Origin: a bacterium
GTDB taxonomy: Bacteria; Desulfobacterota; S145-22
Direction of reading: 5' to 3'
Length of the DNA: 34,330 nucleotides
Assembly: GCA_026986155.1 (NCBI GenBank)
Contig: JALSPC010000121.1
Coordinates: forward strand, 1 to 34,330
Shown here: piece after piece, positions 11,814 through 16,063 of the stretch
Layout of the letters: each line of letters starts with the position of its first letter
Position numbering within the stretch: the stretch's first letter is position 1
Made by a program: the position numbers and the translations under genes
Notes under the pieces: generated by a model
The model's database searches: none
What the model was told of the DNA's origin: nothing
What the model saw: the letters and a program-made list of their open reading frames with translations, nothing else

Positions 11814-11987
11814 CTATCCCAGCCGCTCCTTTAAGCGGCGGATTTCTTCTTCCAGCTCCTCGATTCGCTGTATCTGGTGGGGCCGGATGGAATGGGCGGG
11901 AAGGCTTGCCTCCAGGTCCGCAAGCAGCCGTTCCTTTTTCTCAAGTTCCTTTTGAAGCGCTTCGCGCTCGGAAGATGGTGTATTCAT
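11814..11987 (-). CDS. Small coiled-coil protein with SLPAHSIRPHQ motif
   Basis: A 57-residue reading frame: MNTPSSEREALQKELEKKER, then LLADLEASLPAHSIRPHQIQ, then RIEELEEEIRRLKERLG. Two charged helices flank a central LPAHSIRPHQ turn, suggesting a short antiparallel helical hairpin. Small proteins of this pattern occur in many anaerobes from memory, but no function is known to me. The ATG at 11987 has GAGGAG five bases upstream. The gene overlaps the last 47 bases of ptsI in another frame, so it is probably translated from the same transcript. The heptad-rich sequence and good ribosome-binding site argue that it is real. Confidence 0.65.
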   Translation of the reverse strand: MNTPSSEREALQKELEKKERLLADLEASLPAHSIRPHQIQRIEELEEEIRRLKERLG

Positions 11988-13773
11988 ACCCGCTCCTCGC
12001 GTCTTTAACCGACAAAAAGTTCTTTTCCATGAGGTTGTTGACCTCGTCCGGCGTGCCCAGCCTAAGGGCCTCTTCCACCAGTGCCTCGGCCTCGCTCAAG
12101 GTGACGGAACGAAGGACGCGTTTTACCTCGGGGATGGAGAGGGACTTCATGCTCAGGTCCCGTATGCCGCAACCCAGGAGAAGAACCGCGTAGATGGGAT
12201 CGCCCGCGATCTCCCCGCAGACGGAACAGGGCTTGTCCGCCTGGTTGCTGATGTCGGCCACACGCTTGATGAGCCACAGGATCGCCGGGTTGTAAGGGCG
12301 GTAGAAGGCCGCCACCTTCTCGTTGTCCCGGTCCACCGCCAGGGTATATTGAACCAGGTCGTTGGTTCCGATGCTGAAGAAATCGGTCTCCCGGATGAGT
12401 TTATCCGCCAGGATCGCGGCGGAAGGCACCTCGATCATGACTCCCGTCTTGATGTCCTCGTCGTAAGGAATTCCCCGGAGCATCAATTCATGCTTGACCT
12501 CGGCGAAGATCTCATTGACCGCCCGGAGCTCTTCCAGGCTCGAGATCATGGGATAGAGCACCCGAATCTTCCCGAAGGCGCTGGCACGCAAAAGGGCCCT
12601 GAGCTGCACCTTAAAGACGTCTACTTCTTCCAGGGAAATACGGATAGACCGCCAGCCGAGGAAGGGATTCACCTCCCGTTTTATCTTCTGGAAGGGCAGA
12701 AACTTGTCGCCCCCCAGATCCAGGGTCCGGATGGTCGCTTCCTTTCCCTTCAGCGCCTCCGCCACCGTCCGATAGATGCGAAACTGCTCTTCCTCCGTCA
12801 GAAGACGCTCGCTCAACAGGAACGGCAGCTCCGTCCGGAAGAGCCCAACGCCCTCCGCCCCGTACTTGATGGCCACCCCCACGTCCGGGGCCTTGACGAT
12901 GTTCGAGTAGAGGTGGAAGGCCACTTCGTCCCTCGTCATTGAGGGAAGCTTGGAGATCTTCTCCAGCTCCTTACGGTAGGCGGCGTAGTCCTCCTGGATC
13001 TTCTTGTATTCCTTGATCACGGAGGGCTTGGGGTTGATGAAGACGAGCCCCAGGTTGCCGTCTACGATAATCCGGTCGTTGGTTCTTACCTTCCGAAGGA
13101 TGTTCTCCACACCCACCACCGTGGGGACCCCCATGGAGCGGGCCAGGATGGCGGCGTGGGAGGTCTCGCCCCCTACCTCGGTCACCATGCCCTTGATTTT
13201 CTTCGGGTCGAAGTGAATCGTGTCCGACGGTGTCAGTTCGTGGGCAAAGACCACGCCCCGTTTGTTGAAGAGAACCTTTCGGGTGTCCAGCTGCAGGAGC
13301 CGGTGGATGACGCGCTTGCCGATGTCCTCGATGTCCTTCCCCCGCTCCCGGAGATAGTCGTCCTCGATGGTCTTGAACTTCTCCATGAAGGCGCGGATGC
13401 CGCGGAGAATGATGAATTCCGCGTTGAGCCTCTCGTCCTTCACCATCCGCGGAACGTTGTCCTGAAAGAAGGGATCGTCGATAATCATCAGGTGGCTCTT
13501 GATGATTTCCGCCTCTTCTTCCCCGATATCCCGCCGGATGCGCCGCTCACTCTCCTCTAACTGCCGCTTGACCTCCTCCAGGGCCTCGCGATAACGGACG
13601 ATCTCCTGCTCGATTTCATTGTCCTTGAGGCGGTAAGGGATAATCTCGGCCAGTTCGCTGATGTAGATGTCGGCCTTTCCGATGGCGATCCCCTCAGCGA
13701 CGGGAAGTCCCTTGTACATGTTCTCGGAAACGCTGATCTTTCTCTCGTCTTTTTTCAAACGGTACGGTGCCAT
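11941..13773 (-). CDS. ptsI: Phosphoenolpyruvate-protein phosphotransferase (PTS enzyme I)
   Basis: First enzyme of the PTS: it moves phosphate from PEP to HPr. The 610-residue protein has the N-terminal HPr-binding helices (about 55-160), the mobile phosphohistidine domain with GGETSHAAILARSMGVPTVV (His206 is the phosphorylated residue) and the C-terminal PEP-binding barrel with GAEGVGLFRTE, MIEVPSAA, FFSIGTNDLVQYTLAVDR and the conserved cysteine in PCSVCGE. It is longer than the usual ~575 residues: about 18 residues precede YKGLPVAEGIAIG, and the last ~20 overlap the next small gene. The chosen ATG at 13773 has GAGG upstream. An internal ATG at 13719 is possible. It begins seven bases after map. 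No EII or HPr gene is in the window, and a regulatory PTS is common in such bacteria. Confidence 0.94.
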   Translation of the reverse strand: MAPYRLKKDERKISVSENMYKGLPVAEGIAIGKADIYISELAEIIPYRLKDNEIEQEIVRYREALEEVKRQLEESERRIRRDIGEEEAEIIKSHLMIIDDPFFQDNVPRMVKDERLNAEFIILRGIRAFMEKFKTIEDDYLRERGKDIEDIGKRVIHRLLQLDTRKVLFNKRGVVFAHELTPSDTIHFDPKKIKGMVTEVGGETSHAAILARSMGVPTVVGVENILRKVRTNDRIIVDGNLGLVFINPKPSVIKEYKKIQEDYAAYRKELEKISKLPSMTRDEVAFHLYSNIVKAPDVGVAIKYGAEGVGLFRTELPFLLSERLLTEEEQFRIYRTVAEALKGKEATIRTLDLGGDKFLPFQKIKREVNPFLGWRSIRISLEEVDVFKVQLRALLRASAFGKIRVLYPMISSLEELRAVNEIFAEVKHELMLRGIPYDEDIKTGVMIEVPSAAILADKLIRETDFFSIGTNDLVQYTLAVDRDNEKVAAFYRPYNPAILWLIKRVADISNQADKPCSVCGEIAGDPIYAVLLLGCGIRDLSMKSLSIPEVKRVLRSVTLSEAEALVEEALRLGTPDEVNNLMEKNFLSVKDARSGYEYTIFRARSASKGT

Positions 13774-13780
13774 CGCGACC

Positions 13781-14527
13781 TCAAAGCCTTGTCAGGATTT
13801 CCGGCCCGTTGCCGGTGATAATGATGGTATGCTCGAAGTGGGCGGAACGCTTCCCGTCTGCCGTGACAACGGTCCACCCGTCCTTCTTGACCTTGACCCG
13901 CCAGGTTCCCTCGTTCACCATGGGTTCGATGGCGAGGGCCATCCCCTCTTCCAACTTGGGCCCCTGGTGGGGCGGGCCGTAGTTGGGCACCTGTGGGTCC
14001 TCGTGGAGCTGCCGCCCGATCCCGTGGCCCACGAAGTCCCTCACGACGGAGAATCCCGCCGTCTCCACGTGCCGTTGAACGGCGTGGGAGATGTCGTAGA
14101 GGCGGTTTCCCGCCACCGCCTGGGAGATCCCCTCGAAGAGAGACGCCTGCGTCACCTCCATGAGCCGCGCCGCCTCCGAATCGACCCTGCCCACGGCGAA
14201 GGTCTTGGCGGCGTCACCGTAAAACCCGTCCATGACGACCCCGAGATCGATGCCGATAATGTCGCCCTCTTTCAGCCGCCTGCCGCCCGGAATCCCGTGC
14301 ACCACCTCCTCGTTGATGGAGGCACAGATGGTCGCCGGAAAGCCGTGATAGCCCTTGAAGGCGGGCTTGCCGCCCCGTTTCAGGATGAAGGTCTCCGCCT
14401 TCTCGTCGAGTTCCCTCGTGGTGACCCCGGGCCGCACCAAGCCTTCCAGGTAGTCGAGCAGTTCCGCCACGACGCGGTTCGGTTTCCGCATGCGGGCGAT
14501 TTCCTCCTGAGACTTGATAACGATCAT
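13781..14527 (-). CDS. map: Methionine aminopeptidase, type I
   Basis: Removes the initiator methionine from new proteins. The five metal ligands are visible: two aspartates in [19 protein letters not shown], the histidine in [20 protein letters not shown], a glutamate in AIEPMVNEG and a glutamate in [11 protein letters not shown]. The substrate histidine is in [12 protein letters not shown]. At 248 residues with no N-terminal zinc-finger extension, it is a bacterial type Ia form. The ATG at 14527 has a modest GGAACGG site upstream. It lies between the histidine-ladder small protein (22 bases upstream) and ptsI (7 bases downstream). Confidence 0.95.
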
Positions 14528-14549: not shown

Positions 14550-14759
14550 TCAAAGTTTTTCTATCTTCTTGACGGCGTCTTCGAAAAGGGGCGTGCAGGC
14601 CTCAAAATGTGACACCACCTTCCGCAAGTCGCCCGCTATCTCTTTTAATCCCGCCGATTCACACAGCTCCACCCATTTCTCGTGCTCTTTCACGTGGTCC
14701 AGGTTGTGTTCGAGCAGGTGGGGCAGCAGGTGCTTCAATTTGGCAATCTTATCATTCAT
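14550..14759 (-). CDS. Histidine-ladder small protein, likely metal-binding partner of CooT
   Basis: A 69-residue all-helical protein. The first helix has His10, His14, His18, His22 and His26 at exact four-residue steps ([18 protein letters not shown]), so all five lie near one face. Further possible ligands are Cys33, His51 and Cys55. No transmembrane segment or signal peptide is seen. The ATG overlaps the cooT stop as ATGA, so the two are translationally coupled. This points to nickel handling for carbon monoxide dehydrogenase or another nickel enzyme. I recall similar small proteins next to cooT in other anaerobes, but cannot name a characterised member. Function as nickel carrier or store is inference. 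Confidence 0.75.
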
Positions 14760-14962
14760 GACCGTTTCTCGCTTGTCTTTTTCAAGACGGCGTAATGTTT
14801 CATGAAATCGAGATCCATGATTTCATAGCCGTTCAGTTCCTTTTCGTCGCCCAGGATATCCATGACCACGATCTTTCCGTTTTTTACGGTCACGTGGGCC
14901 GCATCTTCCATGATGACCTTCCCGGGATCTATCTTGCCATCATACAGTGTCGATAAACACAT
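14756..14962 (-). CDS. cooT: CooT-family nickel-binding protein
   Basis: A 68-residue homologue of CooT, a small dimer that binds nickel through its N-terminal Cys2 and supports maturation of Ni carbon monoxide dehydrogenase. The start MCLSTLYDGK fits the family and the rest follows the pattern (VIMEDAAHVTVKNGKIVVMD, then LGDEKELNGYEIMDLDFMKH). The open frame reaches a GTG at 14977, but the ATG at 14962 is preferred: GAGGG lies eight bases upstream and only this start leaves the metal-binding cysteine at position 2. Its stop overlaps the start of the histidine-rich protein. No CODH gene is in the window, so the client must be elsewhere. Confidence 0.87.
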   Translation of the reverse strand: MCLSTLYDGKIDPGKVIMEDAAHVTVKNGKIVVMDILGDEKELNGYEIMDLDFMKHYAVLKKTSEKRS

Positions 14963-15088: not shown

Positions 15089-16021
15089 CTACTTATATGC
15101 GATTCCCTTCTTTTCTTCAACAAATTGCTGGGCGGCAAAGGCGGCCGTCGCCCCTTCCCCGCACGCCGTGACGACCTGGCGCAGCACCTTCTTCCGGACG
15201 TCTCCGCAGGCGAAAATACCCTTCAGGGAGGTCTGCATCTCGTCGTTGGTCAGGATGTAACCCCGCCCGTCCATATCCACCTTTCCCTTGAGAAACTGGC
15301 TGTTGGGGATGTTTCCCACGTAGATAAAAATCCCCTTGCACGGCAACTCCCGGGTCTCGCCGGTCTTCAGATTCTTCAAGCGCACCCCTTCCACGGCCTG
15401 GTCTCCGAGAATCTCCTCCACCACCGAGTCCCAGATAAATTCGATCTTCTCGTTCTCGAAGGCCTTCTCCTGGATGGCCTTGGCCGCCCGCAAGCGGTCC
15501 CTCCGGTGGACGATGGTAACCTTTTTCGCGAATTTTGTCAGGAACATGCCCTCTTCCACCGCCGCGTCACCGCCCCCGATCACCACCAGTTCCTCGCCCC
15601 TGAAGAAGGCCCCGTCGCAGGTGGCGCAGTACGAAACCCCTTTGCCCCGGAGTTTCTCCTCGCCCGGGACGCCGAGCTGAGCCACCGTGGCCCCCGCGGC
15701 AATGATGACGGCGTGGGCCGTGTAGCGCCCTTCCCCGCCCACCACGGCAAAACCATCGTCCAGCACCTCCAGGTCTACCGCCTCGTCCGTCTTTATTTCC
15801 AGCCCGAAACGGGTTGCCTGGTCCTTCATGGACATCATCAACTGGGGCCCCGAAACCCCTTCCACGAAGCCAGGATAGTTGTCGATCCAAAACGTCGTCG
15901 CCGCCTGCCCCCCTGGCAGGAGCTTCTCCAGGAGCAGGGTCTTCATGTCCCCGCGCGCGGCGTAGAGCCCCGCCGTCAATCCCCCGGGGCCTCCTCCCAC
16001 GATTACGATATCATAATCCAT
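15089..16021 (-). CDS. trxB: Thioredoxin-disulfide reductase
   Basis: FAD flavoenzyme that reduces thioredoxin with NAD(P)H. Domains in order: N-terminal FAD site (DIVIVGGGPGGLTAGLYAAR), the redox pair Cys132-x-x-Cys135 in YCATCDGAFF, the nucleotide-binding VVIGGGDAAVEEG with HRRDRLRA (basic residues suit NADPH), and the C-terminal FAD motif IFACGDVRKKVLRQVVTACG. At 310 residues it is standard length. The frame runs up to 16060, but the ATG at 16021 has GAGGAGG eight bases upstream and gives the normal MDYDIVIVGGG start. A promoter is visible at 16064-16092. Confidence 0.95.
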   Translation of the reverse strand: MDYDIVIVGGGPGGLTAGLYAARGDMKTLLLEKLLPGGQAATTFWIDNYPGFVEGVSGPQLMMSMKDQATRFGLEIKTDEAVDLEVLDDGFAVVGGEGRYTAHAVIIAAGATVAQLGVPGEEKLRGKGVSYCATCDGAFFRGEELVVIGGGDAAVEEGMFLTKFAKKVTIVHRRDRLRAAKAIQEKAFENEKIEFIWDSVVEEILGDQAVEGVRLKNLKTGETRELPCKGIFIYVGNIPNSQFLKGKVDMDGRGYILTNDEMQTSLKGIFACGDVRKKVLRQVVTACGEGATAAFAAQQFVEEKKGIAYK

Positions 16022-16063
16022 TCCATCTGCCTCCTCGTCCACGGTGTTCATTATCCGCAATTA

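Follow-up and report, generated by a model that had tools for sequence, protein, structure and literature searches.

A tail-less CooJ-like protein encoded with CooT as a probable nickel chaperone

The window analysed here, a stretch of 34,330 nucleotides, corresponds to the complete contig G000:C121 in a desulfobacterotal draft genome of 2.68 Mb that is 93% complete. On its minus strand a cooT gene is followed by a gene for a histidine-rich protein of 69 amino acids (Table 1). The preliminary description of this DNA had noted that the start of the second gene overlaps the cooT stop, and the four-base ATGA at the junction bears this out. The encoded CooT begins with MCLSTLY and thus carries an N-terminal Met-Cys. 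Both genes belong to a block, trxB-cooT-cooJ-map-ptsI, which is kept, in the same arrangement as in the window, in all five relatives from the family of this genome (f1, six genomes in total). No CODH gene lies beside the cooT/cooJ-like pair in its own genome, where the neighbours are housekeeping genes. Plus-strand open reading frames over this region were rejected as antisense shadows, the minus-strand genes being the conserved ones.

Table 1 Genes and sequence features around the cooT/cooJ-like pair. Positions are those of the window.
Feature	Position	Strand	Description and basis
ptsI	11941-13773	-	named by eye
map	13781-14527	-	type I methionyl aminopeptidase, kept downstream neighbour; TIGR00500; synteny
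tail-less CooJ-like protein gene	14550-14759	-	69 aa, predicted two-helix hairpin; 6hk5 homology, model, homologues
five-histidine ladder	14682-14732	-	codons 10-26; present in 6/6 f1 genomes
HLLEHNLDH	14694-14720	-	codons 14-22, aligned to CooJ nickel motif H(W/F)X2HX3H; HFLDHVEGH in 6hk5
ATGA	14756-14759	-	cooT stop/cooJ-like start overlap, 4 bases; read from sequence
cooT	14756-14962	-	68 aa; PF10133 48.4 bits, cut-off 27; all six f1 genomes keep cooT
trxB	15089-16060	-	thioredoxin reductase, kept upstream neighbour; TIGR01292; synteny

The 69-residue protein contains histidines at positions 10, 14, 18, 22, 26 and 51, the first five of which form the ladder of i+4 steps that had first drawn attention to it. 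When six histidines were placed randomly in 69 positions, five at this spacing arose in only 6 of 400,000 trials, hence the pattern is not due to chance. All six f1 genomes keep it. The protein was modelled as a hairpin of two helices (residues 2-35 and 39-67) with a mean pLDDT of 96.9, which places the whole ladder on one predicted helix. On an ideal helix each i+4 step turns 40 degrees, so that adjacent ladder histidines share a face, yet the stripe winds slowly. From His10 to His26 the winding amounts to about 160 degrees over 24 Å. The earlier proposal that all five lie on one face therefore holds for neighbouring residues but not for the ends of the ladder, as there is no single flat face. 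Both cysteines of the protein, Cys33 and Cys55, are kept in all six f1 genomes as well; since the gene adjoins that for thioredoxin reductase, a redox link is conceivable.

Pfam and NCBIfam contain no family for this protein, and its relatives gave only scattered weak matches. Neither a single-sequence search of the PDB nor our first and most remote profile (A1) found CooJ; 6 of 20,000 shuffled CooJ fragments reached the score obtained with A1, so that CooJ was not separated from them. A profile centred on the cooT-linked members was thus needed. With hmmsearch against the PDB, such a profile matched 6hk5 (CooJ) at an E-value of 0.0048 over profile positions 6-64, and a second profile (A7) matched it at 0.019, with HFLDHVEGH of CooJ in register with the family motif. 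No shuffled CooJ fragment (0/20,000) scored as high with either of these two profiles. Since Rhodospirillum rubrum with its CooT was not recovered among the genome contigs, nor a relative among the plasmids, its CooJ was represented in all comparisons by the 6hk5 fragment only. Profile-profile comparison (hhalign) with this fragment gave a probability of 88, an E-value of 3.1e-6 and 13% identity. In both PDB profile searches some unrelated helical proteins outscored CooJ, but they did so only over helix 2 and without the histidine helix. In a Foldseek search with the model, 6hk5_E ranked sixth (TM 0.73/0.78) amid generic hairpins that matched equally well, so the predicted fold agrees with homology to CooJ without proving it. 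The match is weak for any single sequence and is carried by the family profile. Judged by these sequence comparisons, the 69-residue protein is homologous to the core domain of CooJ rather than an unfamiliar ladder protein.

Alfano et al. (in 2019) are said to have defined CooJ homologues by the motif H(W/F)X2HX3H together with a variable histidine tail, and the core of the present family fits this motif. All three motif histidines are present in the 69-residue protein as His14, His18 and His22 (HLLEHNLDH compared to HFLDHVEGH). The aromatic residue after the first of them is absent and replaced by Leu15. Across the family this residue is Trp in 143 of 153 cores and Leu in 8 of 153, and the Leu-type cores include one that is both His-tailed and cooT-linked (L064). 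The histidine-rich C-terminal tail is also lacking, as the chain ends at residue 69 with no histidine beyond position 51. Because tail and motif aromatic are missing, we refer to the protein as a CooJ-like core-domain homologue of a tail-less kind and do not count it as CooJ proper. Tail-less relatives adjoin cooT elsewhere too (e.g. L119, L084 and L153), which indicates that the published pair of features, motif and tail, leaves part of the family uncovered.

The protein itself occurs in all six f1 genomes, where the five relatives are 70-83% identical to it, and our first search also recovered remote relatives across the phylum. Profile searches detected CooJ-like proteins in 109 of the 297 sampled genomes of the phylum, and further ones in Chloroflexota, Planctomycetota, Spirochaetota and others. 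In alignments the family core reads H-[W/L]-x2-H-N-x2-H...W. The conservation of the five histidines in homologues, the lack of which the preliminary description named as a refutation, is divided: His14, His18 and His22 recur throughout the family, whereas only the f1 clade has both His10 and His26 (6/153 distinct cores; 6/6 f1 genomes). Most of the 153 distinct cores have Phe or Tyr at position 26 and Val or Ile at position 10; His10 without His26 recurs in a few other lineages. Many of the relatives bear histidine-rich tails. His-tailed CooJ-like proteins of Desulfobulbales, Scalindua/Brocadia and Chloroflexota (e.g. L156, L157 and L185) share the core and the cooT-then-cooJ-like gene order with the 69-residue protein, whereas they possess the aromatic residue, a C- or N-terminal His tail and Phe or Tyr at position 26. 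One of them, L157, is a cable-bacterium contig, and CooJ has been reported in cable bacteria (PMC11247825).

The gene neighbourhood links this family to CooT. Immediately upstream of the CooJ-like gene and on the same strand, cooT was found in 73 of the 80 named loci, which come from several phyla and were chosen via cooT-linked seeds, so that this proportion is an overestimate. Among loci L063-L118, which underwent less selection, cooT lies upstream in 16 and downstream in 4 of 56 cases. At the level of genomes, CooT occurs in 105/109 genomes with and 65/188 without the CooJ-like family (297 genomes, p 4e-29), any CODH, i.e. CooS or CdhA over the cut-off, in 102/109 and 99/188, respectively (297 genomes, p 1e-14), and the association with CooT persists inside CODH-bearing genomes (p 8e-13), all three p-values being uncorrected for shared descent. 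A co-occurrence with CODH, which had been suggested as a check from the outset, was thus found. Eighteen genomes with the CooJ-like family seemed to be free of CooS; 11 of them turned out to bear a cdhA-type CODH over the cut-off, and in 7 of the 109 no CODH was found.

The genome to which the window belongs contains two CooS genes, one of them beside ACS and a CooC-like ATPase, the latter assigned from its position and a MinD-type match, and it also encodes a NiFe hydrogenase and HypA. It has two further CooT paralogues, at G000:C15:14085-14258 (L061 8059-8259) and G000:C196:3745-3927 (L062), neither of which adjoins a CooJ-like gene; each of the six f1 genomes retains all three paralogues. 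As a separate observation, the hydrogenase large-subunit frames in G141:C148, G113:C55 and G169:C169 contain one in-frame TGA each, as expected for selenocysteine-containing NiFeSe hydrogenases.

In R. rubrum, CooJ and CooT are nickel proteins that are required for CODH when nickel is low; CooJ shares an operon with cooT and has 16 histidines in its C-terminal domain, and CooT binds one nickel per dimer through Cys2 (PMC6006190). The His-rich C-terminal tail of CooJ is described in the literature (PMC6006190, PMC6344411). The title of PDB 6hk5 names a high-affinity nickel site in a truncated form of CooJ, which indicates that the site is independent of the full tail. Our protein resembles R. 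rubrum CooJ in the similar length of the predicted helical hairpin, the HX3HX3H in register, the partnership with cooT and the presence of CODH in the genome. It differs by the missing tail, by a Leu where the motif calls for Trp/Phe, by the additional in-helix His10 and His26, by a gene position away from the CODH operon and by an identity of only about 13%. CooT (PF10133) is alike as a nickel-binding CODH accessory protein encoded by the partner gene, while its small beta fold and Cys2 ligand set it apart and it has no similarity to the 69-residue protein. Other His-rich nickel proteins (Hpn, HypB and SlyD tails) are alike in that a small protein with a link to nickel contains many histidines (PMC8704837), but theirs are flexible histidine runs, whereas the 69-residue protein has no run and its histidines are placed on a predicted helix; the likeness would be one of role only.

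The homology to the CooJ core, the alignment of His14, His18 and His22 with the nickel motif of CooJ and the tracking of CooT and CODH lead us to read the 69-residue protein as a CooJ-like nickel chaperone that has no tail and is produced alongside CooT; we assign this reading a probability of roughly 0.7. The preliminary description had already paired the protein with CooT and suggested a metal-related role without recognising CooJ; through the sequence relationship to CooJ, both the pairing and a probable role in nickel handling are now well supported. The protein would dimerise as CooJ does, and His14, His18 and His22 of the paired helices would bind Ni(II), while His10 and His26 might extend this three-His site or provide a weaker second one. 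CooT would hold one nickel per dimer via Cys2, as in R. rubrum, and the two proteins together may keep nickel ready for a CooC-assisted insertion into the C-cluster, the likely clients being the two CODHs of the host. Against the chaperone reading stand the absent tail and motif aromatic, the low identity to CooJ, the generic hairpins that fit the model equally well, the failure of profile A1 to separate CooJ from shuffled fragments, the location of the CODH genes elsewhere and the 7/109 genomes in which no CODH was found.

The conserved trxB-cooT-cooJ-map-ptsI block, with no CODH gene nearby and with a metalloenzyme as the map product, would also suit a CooT-linked general metal buffer that supplies several clients, for instance nickel to hydrogenase or zinc or cobalt, and is not dedicated to CODH. 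The NiFe hydrogenase and HypA of the same genome fit this explanation, as do the few family-bearing genomes found without CODH, e.g. G036 and G175, which both have hydrogenases. We nevertheless consider it not very likely, as the co-occurrence with CODH is strong (102/109 compared to 99/188) and the Coo hydrogenase is not among the clients of CooC, CooT and CooJ in R. rubrum (PMC6006190).

Alternatively, the whole five-histidine ladder could be a multi-site nickel store or relay in place of the flexible tail of CooJ. The five histidines are kept in 6/6 genomes at 70-83% protein identity, and His at position 10 was seen in tail-less members only (13/56 compared to 0/97 tailed ones), which suggests a replacement of the tail by helix histidines. 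The tree, however, which is based on few columns and has weak forks, contains only about five changes and no usable independent pairs, and neither supports nor refutes such a replacement. In addition, the ladder turns through about 160 degrees between its two end histidines, and the solved relative 6hk5 has one high-affinity site in the same region, so that we regard a multi-site store or relay as unlikely. It may be speculated, at similarly low odds, that in the f1 clade the in-helix ladder replaced the flexible tail and united nickel storage and transfer on one ordered folded site, where Cys33, Cys55 and the adjacent thioredoxin reductase may bring the release of nickel under redox control. 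A helical remnant of the hemerythrin or ferritin type, in which the histidines bind iron or are merely structural, is highly improbable: two relatives weakly match the hemerythrin HHE model (E 5e-4) and sulerythrin matches helix 2 of one profile (E 1.7e-4), but the latter match omits the histidine helix and is lost when the larger profile A7 is used (E 0.7), no match spans the metal-ligand helix, the 69-residue protein has no Pfam family, four-helix bundle or E/ExxH ligand set, and the linkage to cooT would be left unexplained.

With the tail-less chaperone as the preferred reading, the locus exposes a large unannotated CooT-linked family that includes tail-less forms. An eLife survey of 2026, based on manual seeds and PSI-BLAST, counted 68 CooJ candidates located in CODH operons (PMC13056359). 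CooJ is regarded as rare, yet CooJ-like proteins occur in 109 of the 297 phylum genomes without being covered by a Pfam or NCBIfam model. Tailed and tail-less members offer a natural comparison for asking whether the CooJ tail as a store and the helix site as a means of delivery are separate functions.

Partial extra CooJ-like copies, broken or cut at contig ends, were seen in one relative, G005 (C145, C77 and C256; L026, L027 and L028), a bin with 7% contamination. In L020 (919-1737) and L113 (2965-3783, minus strand) a CooJ-like core with cooT upstream runs in frame into a domain that by eye resembles TrmO/TsaA (tRNA methyltransferase), possibly as a fusion. In L042 (1123-1704), L043 and L057 the core is followed in one frame by a short His-rich linker and a conserved Cys-containing domain (MCGGCENINTC...). 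Three Chloroflexota loci (L163, L136 and L184) combine an N-terminal zinc-ribbon-like stretch with CxxC pairs, a His-rich run and the CooJ-like hairpin core, an arrangement that is undescribed for CooJ in the literature examined.
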